A stretch of 58,689 nt of DNA from Mycobacterium sp. Marseille-P9652. Lineage in GTDB: Bacteria; Actinomycetota; Actinomycetes; Mycobacteriales; Mycobacteriaceae. Shown one piece after another: positions 1,942 through 10,525 of the stretch. Position 1 is the stretch's first letter; the number at the start of each line of letters is the position of its first letter. The stretch is taken from the NCBI RefSeq assembly GCF_902652685.1, contig NZ_CACRUY010000035.1, positions 1-58,689 of the forward strand, given 5' to 3'. Both the position numbers and the translations under genes were made by a program. The notes beneath the pieces are model-generated. The model did not search any database and was not told the DNA's origin. It saw only the letters and a program-made list of their open reading frames with translations.

Positions 1942-2478
1942 TCACCCGTGCGACCGCACGAAGACGGCGTCGGCGGCCGCCGTGGCGTTCGCCCCGATCA
2001 TGCCGAGCATGTTCTTGCCGAGGCCGAATGGGGCCCGCTCCAGCTTGGTCTCCCCGCACACGCGGATGGAGCCGTCCTCTTGCTCGCTGATCGTGGCGGG
2101 CAGCGTCAGCGGCGCGGTGACGCCCTTGATGGTCAACTCCGCCCGCAGGTCGGCGGACCTGCCCTTGGTCGGGTGGGCCGCGCTGACGACGACGGCGATG
2201 TCCGCGAAGCGCTCGACGTCGAAGAAGTCGGCCGAGCGCAGATGCTTGTCGCGACGGCCGATCCCGGTGTCGAGCGAGGCGGCCCGGATGTCGATGCGGC
2301 CGAAAACGCCGCCGTCGCCGGTGAGTTGGCCCTCGCCGGAGAAGTCGGTGAAGTGGCCCTTGACGTTCAGCAGGCCCCACATGTTGCTGACCTTGAACGT
2401 GATGGTCGAGCGGTCCGGGGCCAGCGTCCAGGCGCCGGCCATCTCGGGGTCGTTCAGCAGGATTTCCAGGGTCGTCAC
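1942..2478 (-). CDS. YceI family protein
   Basis: A protein of 178 residues with the YceI lipocalin-like beta-barrel pattern: WTLAPDRSTITFKV at the start, NVKGHFTDFSG, then HLRSADFFDVERFADIAVV and ELTIKGVTAPLTLP. YceI proteins bind long isoprenoid or other lipid chains. There is no signal peptide, so this copy is cytoplasmic. I prefer the GTG at 2478 because GGGAG lies at proper distance; the GTG at 2484 overlaps that site. It lies in line between the NTF2-like gene and the receiver gene on the same strand. Confidence 0.8.
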   Translation of the reverse strand: MTTLEILLNDPEMAGAWTLAPDRSTITFKVSNMWGLLNVKGHFTDFSGEGQLTGDGGVFGRIDIRAASLDTGIGRRDKHLRSADFFDVERFADIAVVVSAAHPTKGRSADLRAELTIKGVTAPLTLPATISEQEDGSIRVCGETKLERAPFGLGKNMLGMIGANATAAADAVFVRSHG

Positions 2479-2511
2479 CGTCACTCCCTTCGATTCGGGC
2501 GAATGTAGCCG

Positions 2512-2901
2512 CTAGGACAGCAGCGGCGCGATCTGGGCGGGATCGAAGTATTCGTCGATCCGGGTAATCAGGCCGTCGGGGCCGACCCTGATGACGATGC
2601 ACACCCGCATCGAGATCGATTGCCCCGCATGGCCGTTCGCGTGCAGGACGTGCTGCTGGACGAAGCCGGCGTCGAAGAACTGCCGGTCGAGGATCTCGTA
2701 GCGGCGTGCGGTCGTCGCGGTGATGAACCAGTCGATCACCCGCAGCGCGCGGCCCTTGTCGTCGTCGCGCTTGGCGCCGGTGCGCCACACCGCGACGTCG
2801 CCGCTCCACATCCGGTCGACCGCGGCGAAATCGCCCCTCTCGATCGCGGGGAAGAGGCGGTCGGCCACCTCGGCGATGGTTTGCGCGCTGGTCGTGGGCA
2901 T
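2512..2901 (-). CDS. NTF2-like / SnoaL-like protein
   Basis: A 129-residue cone-fold protein: N-terminal helices (TIAEVADRLFPAIERGDFAAVDRMW), a central sheet, and the closing strand VIRVGPDGLITRIDEYFDP typical of SnoaL/limonene-epoxide-hydrolase relatives. The family includes small hydrolases, isomerases and binding proteins; this one cannot be assigned a substrate. It starts 12 bases after the DUF6285-type gene, with GGAG just upstream, so it is probably read through from the large catabolic operon. From position it may correspond to M. tuberculosis Rv3142c, which I cannot confirm. Confidence 0.75.
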   Translation of the reverse strand: MPTTSAQTIAEVADRLFPAIERGDFAAVDRMWSGDVAVWRTGAKRDDDKGRALRVIDWFITATTARRYEILDRQFFDAGFVQQHVLHANGHAGQSISMRVCIVIRVGPDGLITRIDEYFDPAQIAPLLS

Positions 2902-2913
2902 CGGTACCGGCTC

Positions 2914-3261
2914 CTACTCTGCTGGTTCGACGTCGTATCCGGGGTGGGCCGCGGCCAACCGGCGGCCCACCACCGTGCGCAGGCAGGCCGTGACCTCGTC
3001 GTCGCGCCCGTCCAGCTCGCCGGCCCTGATCGCGGCGGCCAGCTCCTCCTCGTCGCTGAACCCCAAGTCGGCGAGGGCGAGCCGGGACTCCTCCTCGCTC
3101 TCGTCGAGCAGTTCGCGCTCGACGATGCGCAGCGCGTTCGCGGCGACCCGGGCGTGGAAGTTCACCTGCCCGGTGGTCGCCGCCCGGACGTCGGTCTCCA
3201 GGAATTCCGCGACCGCGGCGACGAGTTCGGCCGCCAGGGGACGGCCGTAGGCGCCGATCAC
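2914..3261 (-). CDS. DUF6285-type protein, partner of ACAD/kinase pair
   Basis: A protein of about 115 residues starting VIGAYGRPLAAELVAAVAEF. It contains QVNFHARVAANALRIVERE and ends in an acidic/helical region. I recognise it as the small conserved protein (DUF6285-type) that commonly follows acyl-CoA dehydrogenase plus APH-kinase gene pairs in actinobacteria; no biochemical function is known to me. The GTG start overlaps the kinase stop in GTGA, so translation is coupled. It is the last gene of the overlapping run beginning at 10465. Confidence 0.75.
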   Translation of the reverse strand: MIGAYGRPLAAELVAAVAEFLETDVRAATTGQVNFHARVAANALRIVERELLDESEEESRLALADLGFSDEEELAAAIRAGELDGRDDEVTACLRTVVGRRLAAAHPGYDVEPAE

Positions 3262-4250
3262 GGGCGCACCTCCTCTGCGAAGGTGGGCATCTCCAGCAGT
3301 TCGAGCAGGTCCCATTCGGTCTCGCAGACGCGGCGCCCGATCGCCGCCAGCTCCACCGATCGGAACTGACCGCTCAGGTGCCGCTCGGCCTGGTAGCGGC
3401 AGATGACGCCCCAGCGCAGGGTCGCCAGCACCAGCCACCAGTGGAACGTCACCCGGTCGACGGTAGTCCCGCCGGCCTCCTCGTAGGCCCGCAGGAAGCT
3501 TTCGATGCTGCCGAGGCCGCCGGCGCCCAGGCTGGCGGGGGCGCCGAACCGCCAGGCCCGGATGCAGAACCAGGCCAGGTCCTCGTAGGCCGCCCCGACG
3601 TGCACCAACTCCCAGTCCAGCACGGCGGCAAGGTCGGAGCCGTCGACGATCAGGTTGCCCATGCGGTAGTCGCCGTGCACCAGGACCCGGGCCGACAGCG
3701 CGGGGGGCCGGTGCGCCTGCAGCCACCGGAACGCCCACTCGAAGGTGGCGGTGGTGTCGCCGATGTCGTCCAGGCGCGCGCGCCACTGCTCGAGTGGGTC
3801 TTCGCCGGTGAGCGCCCGATCGGTCGCGTCGGCGCGGTGAATGGCCGCCAGCGCGTCGGCGCACTGACGCAGCAGGCGGGCCCGGCCGGGGGCGTCGAGC
3901 CGACGCTGGATGCGCCGCACGATGGTCTCACCCTCGATGGCGTCGCAGATGAGGAACGGATTGCCCAGCGCCGCCGGGGAATCCGTGGCGACCAGAACGT
4001 GCGGCACCGGTGCGCCGGCCGCGGCGGCCGCGGCCTGAGACCGGGCTTCGAGCTCCATTCCGGCGTGCACGTCGTCGGGCGGGCCGATGCGCAGGATCAG
4101 CGACCGGCGCCGCGTTCCCGTGACCGCGTCGAAGGCCCACGTGGTCCGGCTGGCTCCGCCGGTGAGTGCGCGCAGATGCTCGATCGCCACGTCACCGGCC
4201 CCGAGGACCGGCTCGAGGACGTCGGCAAGTTTGGGCGCCAGTTCGCTCAC
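3258..4250 (-). CDS. APH-family phosphotransferase (ACAD10/11 kinase-like)
   Basis: A 330-residue aminoglycoside-phosphotransferase-fold kinase. The N-lobe has LTGGASRTTWAF and LILRIGPPD (nucleotide loop and Lys/Arg strand region). The catalytic loop HGDYRMGN is at residues 192-199 and the metal-binding LDWE at 211-214. It looks like the family misnamed FadE36 in M. tuberculosis, and like the kinase half of mammalian ACAD10/ACAD11. Its GTG start overlaps the acyl-CoA dehydrogenase stop (GTGA), and its own stop overlaps the DUF6285-type start. I infer phosphorylation of a hydroxyacyl-CoA or hydroxy acid rather than a drug, because of the coupling to the dehydrogenase. Confidence 0.85.
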   Translation of the reverse strand: MSELAPKLADVLEPVLGAGDVAIEHLRALTGGASRTTWAFDAVTGTRRRSLILRIGPPDDVHAGMELEARSQAAAAAAGAPVPHVLVATDSPAALGNPFLICDAIEGETIVRRIQRRLDAPGRARLLRQCADALAAIHRADATDRALTGEDPLEQWRARLDDIGDTTATFEWAFRWLQAHRPPALSARVLVHGDYRMGNLIVDGSDLAAVLDWELVHVGAAYEDLAWFCIRAWRFGAPASLGAGGLGSIESFLRAYEEAGGTTVDRVTFHWWLVLATLRWGVICRYQAERHLSGQFRSVELAAIGRRVCETEWDLLELLEMPTFAEEVRP

Positions 4251-5485
4251 TGCTTGCCGAACTTGAACAGTCGCTGGGCCACCCGGCGGATCTGGATCTC
4301 CTCCGCGCCCTCGGTGATGCGGTAGCGGCGGTGGTGGCGGTAGATGTGCTCGAACGGCTCGTGCCGGCTGTAGCCGAGGCCGCCGAAGATCTGCATGGCC
4401 CGGTCGGCGGCGTCGCAGACCAGCCGGTTCGCGCGGTAGTTCGCCATCGACACCTTGTCCGACACCTCCATGTGGTGGTTGCGGTCCACGTGCCAGGCCG
4501 CGTAATGCACCAGCAGGCGGACCATCTGGGCCTCGGTCTGCAGCTCGGCCAGCGGCCACTGGACAGCCTGGTTCACCGACAGGGGCTTGCCGAAAACGGT
4601 TCTGTTGCCGGCGTATTCGGCGGCCCGGTCGATGCAGTACTGGGCGGCGCCCAGGCTGCTGGCTGCCTGCCGAATCCGGTTCTCGTGCAGGAACGTCTGC
4701 GCCACCTCCAGGCCGCGGTCCACCTCGCCGAGCACCGCGTCGGCCGGTACCCGCACGTCGGTGAGCACCACCTCGCCGTGGTCGGTCGGCATGTTGAACG
4801 TCCACCAGAAATACGGGACGGTGAAGCCGGGCGCATCGGTGGGAACCAGGAACGCCGTGATGCCGCGGGCCTGCCCGGGCTCCCCGGAGGTGCGGGCGAA
4901 CACCAGGTCGTGGGTGGCGCGGTGGACGCCGGTGTTCCACCGCTTGGCGCCGTTGATCACCCATTCGTCACCGTCGGGTTCGGCGTGGGTTTCCAGCCAC
5001 GTCGCGTCCGAGCCGTGCAGCGGCTCGGACAGGCCGAATGCCATCGAGCGTTCGCCGGTGATCAACGCCTCAGACCACGCCCGCCGTTGCTCGTCGGTGC
5101 CGAAGCGCTCCATCATGATCACCTGCGGGAAGTTGCCGACGATCGAGGACTCGTTCTGCAGGTCGTTGTGCAGGCCAAGGCCCTTGTGCGCCAGGTGTTC
5201 CCGGATGACGGCCATGTCGACGTTGCTGCCGTCGCGGCCGCCGAGCGATGCCGGCAGCCCGTAGCGCAGCCAGCCCGCCTTGTCGGCCCGCCGGCGCATC
5301 TCGGAAAGCAGGTCCTCCCACTCCCGCGTCGGGATGCCGTCGTTGTCCCAGTCGGTGCGGGCGTGTTCGCGGCGTTTGTCGAAATACTGGATGTTCTCGC
5401 GCTCCAGCGGCTTGATCTCGGCCTCGATGAAGTCGTCCATCTCCGCGAGCAGGCCCGGAAGGTGTTCGGGCAGGGTGAAATCCAC
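4247..5485 (-). CDS. Acyl-CoA dehydrogenase, ACAD10/11-like
   Basis: A 412-residue flavin acyl-CoA dehydrogenase: N-terminal helical domain, the middle-domain FAD segment AFGLSEPLHGSDATWLE, and the C-terminal FGGLGYSRHEPFEHIYRHHR followed by RITEGAEEIQIRR. The His-rich HIYRHHRRYRITEGA ending resembles the ACAD10/11 branch rather than short-chain dehydrogenases. The GTG at 5485 is chosen because GAGGAG lies just upstream and the protein then begins VDFTLPEHL; longer upstream ORF sequence is low-complexity Arg/Ser and non-coding. It sits 19 bases after the TetR gene and overlaps the kinase gene by 4 bases. Substrate unknown. Confidence 0.88.
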   Translation of the reverse strand: MDFTLPEHLPGLLAEMDDFIEAEIKPLERENIQYFDKRREHARTDWDNDGIPTREWEDLLSEMRRRADKAGWLRYGLPASLGGRDGSNVDMAVIREHLAHKGLGLHNDLQNESSIVGNFPQVIMMERFGTDEQRRAWSEALITGERSMAFGLSEPLHGSDATWLETHAEPDGDEWVINGAKRWNTGVHRATHDLVFARTSGEPGQARGITAFLVPTDAPGFTVPYFWWTFNMPTDHGEVVLTDVRVPADAVLGEVDRGLEVAQTFLHENRIRQAASSLGAAQYCIDRAAEYAGNRTVFGKPLSVNQAVQWPLAELQTEAQMVRLLVHYAAWHVDRNHHMEVSDKVSMANYRANRLVCDAADRAMQIFGGLGYSRHEPFEHIYRHHRRYRITEGAEEIQIRRVAQRLFKFGKQ

Positions 5486-5504
5486 GTTGACTCCTCTGAC
5501 TCCT

Positions 5505-6116
5505 CTACGCGCCGTACAAAGTCTTCTTCCACACCGTCGCCAGCGTCGTGATGGCATCGGTGTCGCTGATCTCCAAGTCCAGGCCGGACGCGCCGACGAA
5601 GACGGTCGTGAAGTTCTCGAACAGCAGCGCGATCGCCGCCGCGATGTGTCGCGCGTCGAGTTCGGCACCGTAGCCCTGCTCCTGGGCGCGGGCCACCGAG
5701 GCCGCCACGATGTCCATGCCGAATCTCCGGAACTCGTTCTGCACGGCCGCGAAGCGCTGCTGGGTGGCGGCGAGCTGCGCGACGGCGATCATGATGCCGA
5801 TGTTCTGCTTGAACATGTTCCAGTATCCGGTCACTACCGCGGTGAAAAACGCGTCGTCGTCGGGCGATTCGGGCAGCCGCAGGCTCAGCCCGGACGGCTC
5901 CACGACGTCGTGCAGGAAGGACTCCGCGAGCGCGGCCAGCAGGTCTTCCTTGTCGGCGTAGTAGCGGTAGAAGGCCGCCGGCGATCTGCCGGCGGCCGAC
6001 GTGATGTCGGCGAGCGTGGTGCCGTGAAAGCCGCGCTCGGCGAACAGCTTCCGGGCGGCCTGCTCGATGGCCTGCCGGGTCTGGCGGCCCTTGGGGGTCA
6101 GCGTGCCGGCGGGCAT
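5505..6116 (-). CDS. TetR-family regulator, embedded in the catabolic operon
   Basis: A 203-residue TetR protein. The N-terminal helix-turn-helix is clear (AARKLFAERGFHGTTLADIT, then SAAGRSPAAFYRYYADKEDLL), followed by a ligand-binding helical domain. Its start shares one base with the stop of the HMG-CoA-lyase-like gene (TGATG), so it is co-transcribed with the enzymes. A regulator inside its own operon usually represses the operon promoter. The palindrome at 10510-10525 in front of the first gene is the best candidate site. The inducer is probably an acyl-CoA intermediate of the pathway. Confidence 0.87.
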   Translation of the reverse strand: MPAGTLTPKGRQTRQAIEQAARKLFAERGFHGTTLADITSAAGRSPAAFYRYYADKEDLLAALAESFLHDVVEPSGLSLRLPESPDDDAFFTAVVTGYWNMFKQNIGIMIAVAQLAATQQRFAAVQNEFRRFGMDIVAASVARAQEQGYGAELDARHIAAAIALLFENFTTVFVGASGLDLEISDTDAITTLATVWKKTLYGA

Positions 6117-7009
6117 CAGGCCCGGATCCGGTCGCCCGCGCGCAACAGTGCGCCCGGAAGGTCATGCCCAACAGCCGATTTGGCGACACGCGCGGCCGCG
6201 ATCGTGGCGTCGAGGTCGAGGTCCACGCCGAAGCCGCTGTCGCGCAGCAGGTACACCAGGTCCTCGGTGGCGATGTTGCCGGTGGCGCCCGGGGCGAACG
6301 GACAGCCGCCCAGCCCGCCGACGGATGCGTCGAGCCGGGTGACCCCGGCGCTCACCGCCGCGTAGGCGCTCGCCAGGCCGGCGCCGCGCGTGTTGTGGAA
6401 GTGCCCGCCCAGTGGCATGTCACCGAGCAACGGACGCAGTTGGGCGACCAGCGAACTGACGCGCCCCGGCGTGGTGGTGCCGATGGTGTCGGCGATCGAG
6501 AACCGGTCGGCGCCGCGCTCGCGGGCGGCCACGGCGATGTCGAGGACGCGCTCGGGTGGCGTCGGCCCGTCGAACGGGCAGTCCCACGCGGTGGCCACGA
6601 TGACCTCGACGGTGACGCCGGCGTCGTGCGCGATCGCGACGATGTCCCGGATCTGCTCGGTGGCCTCGGCGGCGGACCGCCCGACGTTGGCCCGGCTGAA
6701 CGCGTCACTGGCCGCCACCACGTATTCGATGGATCGCAGGCCGGCAGCGACCGCGCGCCTGGCGCCGTTTGGACTGGCGACGAGCGCGGAGAATTCGATG
6801 TCCGGGTAGTCGCGCAGGTGCGCGGCCAGTTCGGCGGCGTCGGCCATCGACGGGACCTTCGACGGCGAGACGAAGGCGGTGGCCTCCACCTCCCGCACGC
6901 CGGTCGCCGCGATGGCGGCCAGCAGTTCCAGCTTGGCGGACAACGGGATCGGCGCCTCGATCTGCAGGCCGTCGCGCAGCGCGACCTCGCGGATCCGGAC
7001 GTGCGTCAT
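6116..7009 (-). CDS. HMG-CoA lyase-like enzyme (DRE-TIM family)
   Basis: A 297-residue DRE-TIM metallolyase. The N-terminus has REVALRDGLQ (catalytic Arg and metal Asp). GGHFHNTRGAGLASA supplies the paired metal His residues, and GGLGGCPFAPGATGN contains the active-site Cys loop of HMG-CoA lyases. The family cleaves 3-hydroxy-3-methylglutaryl-CoA or related 3-hydroxy-3-alkyl acyl-CoAs to acetyl-CoA plus a keto acid. Its ATG overlaps the CoA-transferase in ATGA order, so the CoA ester is probably made by that transferase. The substrate may differ from HMG-CoA given the unusual operon. Confidence 0.88.
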   Translation of the reverse strand: MTHVRIREVALRDGLQIEAPIPLSAKLELLAAIAATGVREVEATAFVSPSKVPSMADAAELAAHLRDYPDIEFSALVASPNGARRAVAAGLRSIEYVVAASDAFSRANVGRSAAEATEQIRDIVAIAHDAGVTVEVIVATAWDCPFDGPTPPERVLDIAVAARERGADRFSIADTIGTTTPGRVSSLVAQLRPLLGDMPLGGHFHNTRGAGLASAYAAVSAGVTRLDASVGGLGGCPFAPGATGNIATEDLVYLLRDSGFGVDLDLDATIAAARVAKSAVGHDLPGALLRAGDRIRA

Positions 7010-8205
7010 ACGACCTCCTCCGCCCTCAAATCCTTCAGTTCGTCCGGCGTCTTGCCGAGCAGGCCGATGTAGACGTCGTCGTTGTGCTGGCCCGGCCGCG
7101 CGGGTCCGGCGTTGCGCACCCGGCCCGGGGACTCCGAGAGCACGGGCACGACGCCCGGCCCGAGCACGTCGCGCCCGATGCGCTCGTCGTAGTGCTCGAC
7201 GAGCATGCCGCGCGCCCGCAACTGCGGGTCCTCGACCACCTCGGCGACGGTGTTGATGGGGCCCGCGATCACGCCCGCGGCGCTGAGCGTCTCGATGATG
7301 TCGCCGGGCTGCCGTTCGGCCGCCCAGGCGCCGATGATCTCGTCGAGCTCGTCCTGGTTGCGGCCCCGGACGCCGTGCGTGGCGAACCGGTCATCGGTCG
7401 CCAGCTCCGGGCGTCCCATCGCCTTGCACAGGCGCGCGAACACCGTGTCCTGATTGGCGGCGATCACCACCCAGGAGCCGTCGGCGCTGCGGTAGATGTT
7501 CGACGGCGCAATGCCCTCCAGCCGGGTGCCCGACGGCCCGCGCACCACGCCGCCGACGTCGTAGTCCGGGATCGTCGACTCCTGAACGGCCAGGCACGAT
7601 TCGGTGAGTGCGACGTCGACCACCTGCCCGCGCCCGGTGACGCTGCGCCGGTACAGCGCGGCCAGTGCGCCCTGCGCGCCGAACATGCCGGCCAGGCTGT
7701 CGCCGAGCGACAGCGCAAGCCGGGGCCGCGGCCCGCCGGGGAAGCCGTTGAGGTGCCGCAGCCCGCTCGCGGCCTCGGCCACCGAGGCGTACCCGGCCTT
7801 GTGCGCGTCGGGCCCCGTCTGCCCGTAGCCGGACACCCGCACGAGGATGATGCGCGGATTGCGTTCGCTGAGCACGTCGTAGCCGAGGTTCCACTTCTCC
7901 AGCGTGCCCGGGCGGAAGTTCTCGACGACGATGTCGGATCGCTCGACGAGCTCGAGGAACAGCTCGCGGCCGCGCGGCTTGCGCAGGTCGAGCGTCACCG
8001 CCCTCTTGTTGCGCGCGTGCACCGTCCAGAAGACGCGGTGCCCGTCGAGTTCGGCCTGGCCCCAGGTGCGCAACGGGTCCGGGGCGCCGGGCGGTTCCAC
8101 CTTGATGACGTCGGCGCCCATGTCGCCGAGGAGCCGGCCGGCGAAGGGTCCGGCGATCAGGGTGCCGAGCTCCAGCACCCGGACGCCGTCGAGCGGTCCG
8201 CTCAT
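7006..8205 (-). CDS. Class III CoA transferase (CaiB/BaiF family)
   Basis: A 399-residue family III CoA transferase: LDGVRVLELGTLIAGPFAGRLLGDMGADVIKVE at the N-terminus, the NKRAVTLDL strand, VENFRPG, and a catalytic Asp in LSLGDSLAGMFG. Counting from the ATG at 8205 this Asp is residue 169, the same number as in formyl-CoA transferase. A TTG three bases upstream is an alternative start, but the ATG gives the TGATG overlap with the hydrolase gene. The enzyme would move CoA (typically from succinyl-CoA) onto a carboxylic acid released earlier in the pathway and feed the lyase. Confidence 0.9.
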   Translation of the reverse strand: MSGPLDGVRVLELGTLIAGPFAGRLLGDMGADVIKVEPPGAPDPLRTWGQAELDGHRVFWTVHARNKRAVTLDLRKPRGRELFLELVERSDIVVENFRPGTLEKWNLGYDVLSERNPRIILVRVSGYGQTGPDAHKAGYASVAEAASGLRHLNGFPGGPRPRLALSLGDSLAGMFGAQGALAALYRRSVTGRGQVVDVALTESCLAVQESTIPDYDVGGVVRGPSGTRLEGIAPSNIYRSADGSWVVIAANQDTVFARLCKAMGRPELATDDRFATHGVRGRNQDELDEIIGAWAAERQPGDIIETLSAAGVIAGPINTVAEVVEDPQLRARGMLVEHYDERIGRDVLGPGVVPVLSESPGRVRNAGPARPGQHNDDVYIGLLGKTPDELKDLRAEEVV

Positions 8206-9374
8206 CAAGCCTCCGCGAAGTCGTGCCGGACCAGCCAGTCGGTGACCACGCCGACCGCCGCGCGCAGCTTGTCCCGCTGGTCGGGGCCAGCGTAATAATG
8301 TGTCGCGCCGGGGATTTCGTGCATCTCCTTGTCATGATGCCCGATCGCCTCGAAGAGCCGTCGGGTGTGGCTGGGTGTGCAGGCGTCGTCGGCAAGGTTA
8401 CCGATCACCAGCGCCGGGACGGCAATGTCGCGCCCGCAGGCCACCCCGTCGCCGCGGGCGTCGTCGTAGCTCCACTGGGAGAGCCAGCTGCGCAGCGTGC
8501 AGAAGCGTGCCAGCCCGACGGGACCCATGTTCACCACGCGGGGATCACCCAGATAGCAGGTTCCCGGGGTGCGTTCGTTGGGATCGACGGCCGGATCCAG
8601 CCAGCGGGGGTCGGCCATGGTGCCGTGCACGACGAAGCAGAACTCGTCGTCCGGGCGGCCCGCAGACTTCAGGGCGGCCAGCTGGTCCTTGACCCACGAC
8701 GTGATGCGCCGGTTCCGCTCGACCTGCGCCGCCCGGTAACGGCCCAGAAACGCCTCGGTGTAGGGCGGCTGGTTGGGGTTGTCGGGGTTGTAGAGGTCGA
8801 GCTCGGGGTCGCGCTTGGTGGGGTCGGATTCGTCGAGGATGGACGCGTCCAGCCATTCGGTGAGCGTGCCGTGGCGGCTGATGTGGGCGGCCAGCAGCAT
8901 GATGCCGTCGGCGGCGGGCAGCTCCAGCTTGGTCAGGTCGGGGCCGTCGCCGGACGGGCTCGATGTGATGGTCGGGTGCTGTGCCTGCTGCTGGTATAAC
9001 AGCGACAGCGAGCCGCCGCCGCTCCACCCCGCCAGCACGACTTGGGAGTAGCCCAGCCGCTTCTTCGCGTCCTTGATGCACTCGCCGAGGTCCTCGACCA
9101 CCTTCTCCATCAGCAGCGCCGAGTCGGTGCCGCGGAATCGGCTGTTGCAGTAGATGACATGGTGACCGGCGCGGGCCAGCGCGTTGATCATCGGCAGATA
9201 AGCCCCGCCGCCGATCGGATGCATGAACACCAGCACCGTGTCCGACGGCCTGTCGGGCTTGAGCAAGTAGCTCTCCAGCACGGTGATCTCAGCCAACCCG
9301 CCGTAGACGTCGCGGACACCCGAATCATTCTGAAAGGCAACGAGATACGGGATGCGCTCGTACTCGTGCTTCAC
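8205..9374 (-). CDS. Alpha/beta hydrolase
   Basis: A 389-residue alpha/beta hydrolase. The nucleophile elbow is GWSGG with Ser118. The acid residue probably lies in VIGNLADDACTPSH and the His in GATHYYAG near the C-terminus. LVFMHPIGGGAY carries the oxyanion region. I chose the GTG at 9374 because it forms a GTGA overlap with the preceding dioxygenase-like gene; the longer upstream frame is Arg/Pro-rich and non-coding. It may open a ring-cleavage product or lactone made by the dioxygenase-like protein, but that is inference from position. Confidence 0.85.
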   Translation of the reverse strand: MKHEYERIPYLVAFQNDSGVRDVYGGLAEITVLESYLLKPDRPSDTVLVFMHPIGGGAYLPMINALARAGHHVIYCNSRFRGTDSALLMEKVVEDLGECIKDAKKRLGYSQVVLAGWSGGGSLSLLYQQQAQHPTITSSPSGDGPDLTKLELPAADGIMLLAAHISRHGTLTEWLDASILDESDPTKRDPELDLYNPDNPNQPPYTEAFLGRYRAAQVERNRRITSWVKDQLAALKSAGRPDDEFCFVVHGTMADPRWLDPAVDPNERTPGTCYLGDPRVVNMGPVGLARFCTLRSWLSQWSYDDARGDGVACGRDIAVPALVIGNLADDACTPSHTRRLFEAIGHHDKEMHEIPGATHYYAGPDQRDKLRAAVGVVTDWLVRHDFAEA

Positions 9375-10465
9375 GAGTGCTGCCCCAGGTCGTGGGCCAG
9401 CACCTCGGCCGACGGGGTCAGCCGGCGGCGGGTGTCGACGGCGATCACCTGCCAGTCGACGCGGTCGTACTCGTCGAACTTGCGGCGCGCCCGTTCGCGC
9501 GCCTTCTCCGGGGCGCCGTGGTGAACCCCCTGGGGCGCATGGGTGATCAGGCCCGGCGGCATCGGGATGCCATACAGCGAACCGCCGTGGAAGAACGCGA
9601 TCTCGTCGAAGTCGACGTTGCGGTGATACCACGGGGTACGTTCCGTGCCGGGCACGCCCTCGGCGGGCTTGGGCAGGAAGTTCATCACGTACACGCCCGT
9701 GGCTTGCATGAACAGGTGCACCGTCGGCGGCAGGTGCACGCTGTCGGACGTGACGACGTTGTAGTCGGCGATGTTGAAGGTGAACGGGAAGTTGTCCCCG
9801 CGCCAGCCCTCCACGTCCAGCGGATTGTGTTGGTAGTACAGCGTTGTCGGGCCGCCCTCGTGAAAGAGCCGCACCTCGTACTCGTCGCGGCCGTCATCGT
9901 CGGACGGGGCGGGTTCGGGGATGGTCGCCTGCGACGGGTCGAAGGGAAAATGCCGGCCCAGCGTGCCGGGCGGCGGGACCCGCAGTTCGTCGGTGGTCTC
10001 CACCATCAGCAGCGTTGTCTCGCCGTCGGGCACCTGCCGCCAGGTGCACGCCTTGGGGATGTACACCCAGTCGCCCTCGCGGTAGGGCAGCGGCCCGAAC
10101 TCGGTCTCGGCCACGCCGCTGCCGCGGTGGACGAACCACAGGAGGTCGCCGTCGACATGGCGCGCGTAGTACGGCATCGCCTCGTGGCGGCGGCTCAAGA
10201 AGATCCGGCAGTCCTCGTTGCTGAACAGCAGCAGCGGTCCGCCGTCGGCATCGGTCGCGTCGCTCGGCTTGAGCTCGCTGGACAGGACATCGACGGGCCG
10301 CAGCGGGCCGACGGCCCGGTAGGCGGTGGGGTCGTGGCGCCGATACATGTTGGCGGTCCGGCCGGTGAACCCGCCGCGCCCCAGTTCGTCGTCCTTGAGG
10401 CCGGCGAGGTCGGCGTGCAGGCGCCGCGGGGTGCGGCCTTTGCGCAGGTGGACGAAGGATTCCAT
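9371..10465 (-). CDS. Homogentisate 1,2-dioxygenase-like cupin
   Basis: A 364-residue double-cupin protein of the homogentisate dioxygenase superfamily. The C-terminal cupin has WYHRNVDFDE (His281 and nearby acids) and THAPQGVHHG (His315/316), the places where HGD binds Fe(II). Real HGDs run about 430-440 residues and read HRNxMSE at this point, so this is a shorter, divergent subfamily and homogentisate need not be the substrate. It is the first gene of the operon, with GGGAG upstream of the ATG and an inverted repeat 45 bases upstream. No tyrosine-catabolism genes (hydroxyphenylpyruvate dioxygenase, fumarylacetoacetase) are nearby. Confidence 0.8.
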   Translation of the reverse strand: MESFVHLRKGRTPRRLHADLAGLKDDELGRGGFTGRTANMYRRHDPTAYRAVGPLRPVDVLSSELKPSDATDADGGPLLLFSNEDCRIFLSRRHEAMPYYARHVDGDLLWFVHRGSGVAETEFGPLPYREGDWVYIPKACTWRQVPDGETTLLMVETTDELRVPPPGTLGRHFPFDPSQATIPEPAPSDDDGRDEYEVRLFHEGGPTTLYYQHNPLDVEGWRGDNFPFTFNIADYNVVTSDSVHLPPTVHLFMQATGVYVMNFLPKPAEGVPGTERTPWYHRNVDFDEIAFFHGGSLYGIPMPPGLITHAPQGVHHGAPEKARERARRKFDEYDRVDWQVIAVDTRRRLTPSAEVLAHDLGQHS

Positions 10466-10509: not shown

Positions 10510-10525
10510 AAAGTGACGTTACTTT
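10510..10525. promoter_or_regulatory. Palindromic operator of the 2914-10465 operon (candidate)
   Basis: AAAGTGACGTTACTTT is an inverted repeat with arms AAAGT and ACTTT around ACGT. It lies 45 bases upstream of the first gene. Its length and symmetry suit a TetR dimer, and the operon encodes a TetR protein. Confidence 0.6.

Follow-up and report, generated by a model that had tools for sequence, protein, structure and literature searches.

What is degraded by the products of eight translationally coupled genes found together in Mycobacterium sp. Marseille-P9652? They lie in a stretch of 58,689 nucleotides (contig NZ_CACRUY010000035.1, positions 1 to 58,689; hereafter the window) and encode, in order of transcription, a short cupin resembling homogentisate 1,2-dioxygenase (HGD), an alpha/beta hydrolase (ABH), a family III CoA-transferase (CaiB), an HMG-CoA-lyase-family enzyme (HMGL), a TetR regulator, an acyl-CoA dehydrogenase (ACAD), an APH-type kinase (APH) and a small DUF6285 protein. 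We put at roughly one in two the probability that the operon serves phenol or hydroquinone catabolism, the carbon skeleton yielding hydroxyacyl-CoAs that are deoxygenated via phosphorylation as in levulinate degradation. The substrate would be a phenol or hydroquinone with a branched or hydroxylated side chain. We infer the substrate, the reactions and their order, and how TetR acts; what the analysis shows is how the genes are ordered, conserved and found together, which catalytic residues they keep, a conserved palindrome in front of the cupin gene, modular loss and a kinase-DUF6285 fusion. To our knowledge, and among those tested, none of the standard operons for homogentisate, leucine or steroids has this gene set; a first-pass annotation of this DNA had said the same of the homogentisate, leucine and cholesterol pathways. 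It had also left the cluster unassigned, and no pathway assignment was found in print within the literature open to searching.

Organization and conservation of the operon

The window coordinates (Table 1) agree with the earlier description of eight coupled genes with overlaps of one or four bases and 19 bases between TetR and ACAD, the sole non-overlapping junction among them. Cupin and ABH share the four bases GTGA, as do ACAD and APH, and APH and DUF6285; CaiB and HMGL share ATGA, HMGL and TetR meet in a one-base TGATG, and ABH and CaiB are joined either by a one-base TGATG (from ATG 8205) or by four bases (from TTG 8208). The random-stop baseline for overlapping starts (9418/15989) ignores the reading frame and is an unfair control, so the argument rests on conservation of the junctions instead. 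This was followed in the best 80 of 283 loci encoding relatives (the named loci) and in a genus sample of 148 genomes, Mycobacterium being taken in the wide sense. In the named loci an in-frame four-base overlap recurs at ABH-CaiB (72/80), CaiB-HMGL (65/79), ACAD-APH (67/73) and APH-DUF6285 (62/71). Cupin and ABH overlap by four bases or one in 50/80, HMGL and TetR overlap in 23/75, and TetR and ACAD in 4/74.

The gene-neighbourhood search suggested with the first-pass annotation found all eight genes on one strand and in one order in 72 of the 80 named loci. Four others (L187, L199, L258, L260) differ in gene content, and four (L191, L206, L223, L264) are shorter stretches that end within the operon. 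The cupin query (E<=1e-3) had matches in 131 of the 148 genus genomes. The orthologous gene (74-100% identity) accounts for 128 of these, being matched piecewise in G032, G074, G076 and G111; G060 and G023 hold a short cupin piece only, and G063 has no more than a distant gene of the HmgA type. Three pairwise comparisons gave dN/dS values of 0.07-0.31 for the eight genes, which are under purifying selection. Two genus genomes carry decayed or shortened cupin genes (L072:9105-9248 and L073:8762-9682); in L072 the missing stretch extends into the start of ABH, and the later operon genes persist.

A gap of 12 bases separates DUF6285 from a SnoaL-like gene downstream, and one of 27 bases lies between that gene and a YceI-family gene. 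The SnoaL-like gene, present in 45/80 named loci as counted from gene patterns, has a dN/dS of 0.19-0.28 and probably belongs to the operon as its ninth member; the YceI gene has the highest dN/dS of the set (0.45-0.60). The eight-gene extent proposed earlier holds, and the limit set at DUF6285 does not, as both genes follow closely. The gene labels proposed then likewise agree with Pfam, weakly for the cupin, and what had been missed is the likely role of the kinase and DUF6285, the ninth gene, the palindrome and a phenol-hydroxylase-like gene upstream in 45/148 genus genomes.

Table 1. Operon genes, adjoining genes and candidate operator in the window
Feature	Position	Strand	Match or remark
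Cupin (short HGD-like dioxygenase, 364 aa)	9371..10465	-	Pfam HgmA_N 29 bits
ABH (alpha/beta hydrolase, 389 aa)	8205..9374	-	Pfam Hydrolase_4/Abhydrolase_1
CaiB (family III CoA-transferase)	7006..8205	-	PF02515 417 bits
HMGL (HMG-CoA-lyase family)	6116..7009	-	PRK05692 274 bits
TetR regulator	5505..6116	-	TetR_N 57.8 bits
ACAD (acyl-CoA dehydrogenase)	4247..5485	-	Pfam ACAD domains
APH-type kinase	3258..4250	-	PF01636 121.6 bits
DUF6285, 115 aa	2914..3261	-	PF19802 83.8 bits
SnoaL-like gene, probable ninth member	2512..2901	-	PF12680 30.3 bits (cut-off 27)
YceI-family gene, possible tenth member, weaker case	1942..2484	-	PF04264
Palindrome AAAGTAACGTCACTTT, candidate TetR operator	10510..10525	.	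44 bases before cupin ATG

Cupin and alpha/beta hydrolase

The cupin resembles homogentisate 1,2-dioxygenase (HmgA) in sequence family and in the positions of its candidate Fe(II) ligands, H281, E288 (or D287) and H316, taken as a His-Glu-His set. In the alignments, that with 3zds included, the HGD Glu aligns with D287 and not with E288; all four residues are kept in 81/81 orthologues. It differs in its shorter length, in a replaced catalytic His, in having an alpha/beta hydrolase as partner and in its score against TIGR01015 hmgA (45.9 bits, cut-off 510.75), which places it outside HmgA; the true homogentisate pathway was dropped on this ground. The weak HGD homology and the conserved ligand positions would still fit a homogentisate (tyrosine) pathway of variant form, ABH taking the place of fumarylacetoacetase. 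The same score counts against it, however, as do the separate HmgA-type genes (25-28% identity, 445-455 aa frames) in 5/148 genus genomes, and we know of no role for CaiB, HMGL or a kinase in that pathway; we judge the variant very improbable.

ABH has a candidate triad (S118, D329, H359) that is kept in 81/81 orthologues. The PDB holds no close relative (best E 0.0017), so that its role as a candidate C-C hydrolase for the ring-cleavage product is read from context. In two Rhodococcus plasmids an ABH relative directly follows a related cupin; short HGD-like cupins adjoin HppD and a FAH-family gene in Variovorax (L082) and lie near fahA in Rhodococcus rhodochrous (L083). This distribution suggests that ABH may take over the part of fumarylacetoacetase. 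The Variovorax and R. rhodochrous cupins may represent another branch of the homogentisate-type dioxygenases. In three Proteobacteria the ABH relatives stand in mixed contexts, a cupin neighbour not being among those listed, and the plasmid clusters with cupin or ABH relatives do not single out a substrate. Mycobacterium avium plasmid pP7a (L080, L076) carries a distant cupin (50%) and a distant ABH (51%), some 40 kb from one another, where the surrounding clusters abound in genes for P450s, FAD-oxidoreductases and SDRs.

Upstream phenol hydroxylase

In 45/148 genus genomes an HsaA-like flavin oxygenase is encoded less than 6 kb before the cupin and on its strand; a same-strand copy is also found in 32/80 named loci. 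Three of these proteins scored 230-250 bits against the HsaA model (cut-off 450), and are not its equivalogs, and 188-205 bits against that of p-hydroxyphenylacetate 3-hydroxylase. An HpaB-family hydroxylase takes this place in Gordonia soli (L148/L187), G441 and G581; among the upstream hydroxylases the match to the HpaB-1 model is about 170 bits. That different phenol hydroxylases replace each other here is the best indication of a phenolic substrate ring. Between hydroxylase and cupin, 15/80 loci carry a gene of the F420H2-dependent quinone-reductase family. In one genome (G497) an HsaA-like gene and a second TetR precede all eight genes. The gene at L062 11614-12990 had been considered as a 4-hydroxybutyryl-CoA dehydratase; NCBIfam and Pfam give HpaB. 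At L073:2886-5865, FAD-monooxygenase-like and extradiol-like genes (assigned by eye) lie upstream of quinone-oxidoreductase-type genes, possibly as another aromatic cluster.

In many relatives a flavin hydroxylase is followed in turn by a ring-cleaving dioxygenase and an alpha/beta hydrolase, a succession that resembles HsaA-HsaC-HsaD of steroid ring degradation. Here, in contrast, the dioxygenase is a cupin, the hydroxylase falls under the HsaA cut-off, and CaiB, HMGL and a kinase module come after. Hydroxylase, cupin and ABH might follow a meta-cleavage logic, acting like HsaA, HsaC and HsaD on a catechol derived from an alkylated phenol and not, HGD-like, on a hydroquinone. HsaA and HpaB hydroxylate ortho to an existing OH, and an alpha/beta hydrolase follows in steroid ring degradation; together with the matches to the HsaA and HpaB-1 models these points favour it. 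The sole family match of the cupin is, however, HGD-type, and the company of HppD and a FAH-family gene or fahA kept by related short cupins points to homogentisate-type chemistry. We regard meta-cleavage as a possible, if doubtful, alternative.

CoA-transferase and HMG-CoA-lyase-type enzyme

The nearest model to CaiB is succinate-glutarate CoA-transferase (NF052585), and its 260 bits against a cut-off of 750 exclude membership; D169 is kept in 79/79. HMGL exceeds the PRK05692 cut-off of 246 bits, matches structure 6nds (E 3.2e-56) and is placed in the HMG-CoA lyase family. Its catalytic Arg, Asp, His, His, Cys and Asn (R12, D13, H203, H205, C236, N245) are kept in 77-78/78, the lone miss being a gap. 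A second CaiB-HMGL pair (49%, 37%) occurs in another genus genome (L119:6900-9043), and relatives of the two are also near one another in L117 and L121; the pair recurs as a unit of its own. In the window it differs from its known counterparts by sitting inside a ring-cleavage operon.

It was also considered that HMGL is the housekeeping HMG-CoA lyase of the genome, serving leucine from within an unrelated operon, as it is the only one of five HMGL-like genes with a frame suited to an HMG-CoA lyase (the other four were judged on frame length and score only). Leucine is served by a CitE-like lyase in M. tuberculosis, and HMGL stays joined to CaiB and ACAD where the cupin and ABH are gone (L174-L176) and is missing from the L143 locus. 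This role was set aside as very improbable.

Kinase, DUF6285 and acyl-CoA dehydrogenase

In APH, D194, N199 and D212 are kept in 74/74, D194 answering to the catalytic Asp of the LvaABC and ACAD10-11 kinases, and the kinase domain of ACAD11 is among its PDB matches; APH is predicted to be a hydroxyacyl-CoA kinase. DUF6285, a putative counterpart of LvaB, is predicted to be its small partner. It occurs in a single copy in the genome of the window, with one plasmid match, and no relatives were found in the PDB. APH is fused to DUF6285 in Microtetraspora glauca (L260) and Streptomyces adustus (L199). In the known systems, LvaA and ACAD10/11 phosphorylate 4-hydroxyacyl-CoAs and the ACAD then eliminates the phosphate (PMC11342911, PMC12440821), and LvaB, of 12 kDa, binds LvaA and is pulled down with it (PMC6692424). 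The window operon is like LvaABC of Pseudomonas putida and mammalian ACAD10/ACAD11 in combining an APH-type kinase, a small protein of about 12 kDa and an ACAD in one operon.

A catalytic Asp with HCMR-type residues is given as the signature of ACAD10/11 and LvaC in PMC12440821. Like LvaC and ACAD11, the S. adustus ACAD that adjoins the APH-DUF6285 fusion has the Asp (YDGPDEVH) and HCMR, and the Microtetraspora ACAD, two genes from the fusion, has the Asp (YDGPDEVH) and HAMR. In G186 an ACAD with Asp and HAMR, an APH (50%) and a DUF6285 (43%) stand together.

In M. glauca and S. adustus the cupin (71-72%) and ABH (73-74%) are accompanied by distant homologues of CaiB (47-50%), HMGL (45%), APH (45%), ACAD (31-33%) and SnoaL (32-34%) in other gene orders, with the SnoaL-like gene directly before the cupin in both. 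Further genes encode an acyl-CoA ligase, an SMP-30-type protein, a thiolase, an SDR, a second ACAD and an enoyl-CoA hydratase, those of S. adustus being matched by eye to the Microtetraspora genes. We read these sets as an independent assembly, the alternative being a rearranged common ancestor.

TetR and the palindrome

The palindrome AAAGTAACGTCACTTT is the sole site with at most one mismatch in the 5.7-Mb genome. It is found with up to three mismatches in 75/80 named loci and with four in one more; the best of 400 shuffles reached four mismatches, three times. It is absent (7-8 mismatches) from the four loci of differing gene content (L187, L199, L258, L260), in none of which a TetR orthologue was detected. 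TetR and HMGL are separated by a further gene in L056, and there a second copy (two mismatches) stands 32 bases before the predicted TetR start. The intervening gene (L056:3272-4141) is on the opposite strand and by eye resembles mycolic-acid-type methyltransferases. No TetR was found at E<=1e-40 in G064, G023, G105 and G029, genomes that lack the cupin and ABH at the locus, and no palindrome is kept in L174 and L143. TetR is probably the local regulator and is separable from the modules on either side.

Proposed pathway

The ring would be prepared, in many relatives, by a flavin-type phenol hydroxylase (resembling HsaA, or HpaB in Gordonia soli and two congeners), and then opened by the HGD-like cupin. 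ABH would break a C-C bond of the product, and CaiB would transfer CoA to the acid released. The HMG-CoA-lyase-type enzyme would convert a 3-hydroxy(-3-methyl)acyl-CoA to acetyl-CoA and an oxo product. APH with DUF6285 would phosphorylate a hydroxyacyl-CoA, probably at C4, and ACAD would complete the removal of oxygen so that beta-oxidation can proceed. TetR may sense an intermediate of the upper part and would act through the palindrome ahead of the cupin.

Co-function of the ring-opening and CoA halves is probable. Outside the genus, in a family sample of 161 genomes, an ACAD orthologue (E<=1e-130) occurs in 11/14 genomes with an ABH orthologue (at least 65% identity, one match partial; the identity cut-offs are our choice) against 18/136 without, with a Fisher p of 6e-7 that is not corrected for kinship. 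The operon is modular in its gene content, the parts being cupin and hydrolase with TetR; CaiB with HMGL; and ACAD with kinase and DUF6285. Among 20 genus genomes without an intact cupin, an ACAD match (E<=1e-100) was found in 12 and none in eight. Eight of the matches have 82-90% identity and four 64-65%; three of the latter four were inspected and have a different neighbourhood. G070 and G126, among the 12, are incomplete, with contig ends within the operon. G514 has cupin-ABH-HMGL-TetR, and stand-alone ACAD-APH units with 62-69% ACAD identity occur in other genera.

Several observations weigh against the proposed phenol or hydroquinone pathway. Three genomes (G064, G023, G105; L174-L176) keep fadB4-CaiB-HMGL-ACAD-APH-DUF6285 and have no cupin, ABH or TetR at the locus, G023 retaining a 26-residue piece of cupin; G029 (L143) keeps only ACAD-APH-DUF6285-SnoaL-YceI. 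Conversely, G196, G586 and G561 have only cupin-ABH-CaiB at the locus, G574 only cupin-ABH, and Nocardia speluncae only a cupin-ABH(-CaiB) type set. Outside the genus, ABH occurs without ACAD in 3/14 genomes and ACAD without ABH in the 18 noted above. The palindrome is kept in L175 and L176 though TetR is gone from these genomes, and L144 and L146 have TetR relatives (58%, 65%) and no palindrome within three mismatches. No HsaA-like gene was found at E<=1e-90 in the genome of the window. In the window cupin the catalytic His of the HGD WHG motif is Arg (WRG); this position differs among short cupins, being Lys beside HppD (Variovorax) and His in the R. opacus cupin, and as even the former has Lys, WRG leaves HGD-like chemistry possible. 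Finally, the window ACAD has the canonical Glu392 (kept in 74/75, with one gap) and, in alignments with ACAD11, RQAAS in place of HHCMR and no upstream Arg. With Glu and RQAAS, and neither the Asp nor HCMR, it is not an LvaC, and the operon differs from LvaABC in this and in its tie to ring cleavage. ACAD relatives at 63-64% in G441 and G196 likewise have Glu and RQAAS. The window enzyme may reach the same end by other means or be an ordinary dehydrogenase.

The first-pass annotation had taken the eight genes for one full route of unassigned substrate. A conserved, coupled, catabolic-looking operon stands; a single indivisible route is not supported, in view of the module losses in L174-L176 and L143. 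These losses are also what favours two functions on one transcript, namely a unit for ring opening (cupin, ABH, TetR) and one for general salvage (CaiB, HMGL, ACAD, APH, DUF6285) of hydroxylated or methyl-branched acyl-CoAs of various origins: five genes of the latter survive without the former, its last part persists alone with SnoaL and YceI, and stand-alone ACAD-APH(-DUF6285) units exist in G441, G196 and others. Distant homologues of the whole set surround the cupin in Streptomyces and Microtetraspora, however, and beyond the genus the orthologues of ABH and ACAD tend to occur together, though mostly unlinked. Two separate functions are possible, if doubtful.

An unlikely but more specific proposal, hypothetical throughout, is that the operon degrades a chromanol or prenylquinone of the vitamin E kind. 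Ring opening would give a hydroquinone whose side chain is a 4-hydroxy-4-methyl acid, prone to form a gamma-lactone, from which the SMP-30 gene product of the Streptomyces type, acting as lactonase, and a ligase would prepare the CoA ester. Kinase, DUF6285 and ACAD would take off the tertiary gamma-hydroxyl, and beta-oxidation would leave a methylated homogentisate suited to the HGD-like cupin, with ABH replacing fumarylacetoacetase. CaiB and HMGL would process a methyl-branched dicarboxylate, for example as citramalyl-CoA-type esters. The scheme would account for the main genes, including that of the quinone-reductase family; none of the tocopherol papers listed looked relevant from its title and the first lines of its abstract.

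Significance

An operon that is kept in most of the sampled genus genomes, is under purifying selection and is headed by a palindrome occurring once in the genome of the window has no assigned substrate in the searchable literature. The comparison narrows the guesses to testable chemistry, namely ring cleavage by a short HGD-like cupin and phosphorylation-based removal of oxygen from a hydroxyacyl-CoA. If the proposed phenol or hydroquinone pathway is true, the kinase-ACAD strategy of levulinate and 4-hydroxy fatty acids would reach into aromatic catabolism, and DUF6285 would gain a role as a kinase partner.

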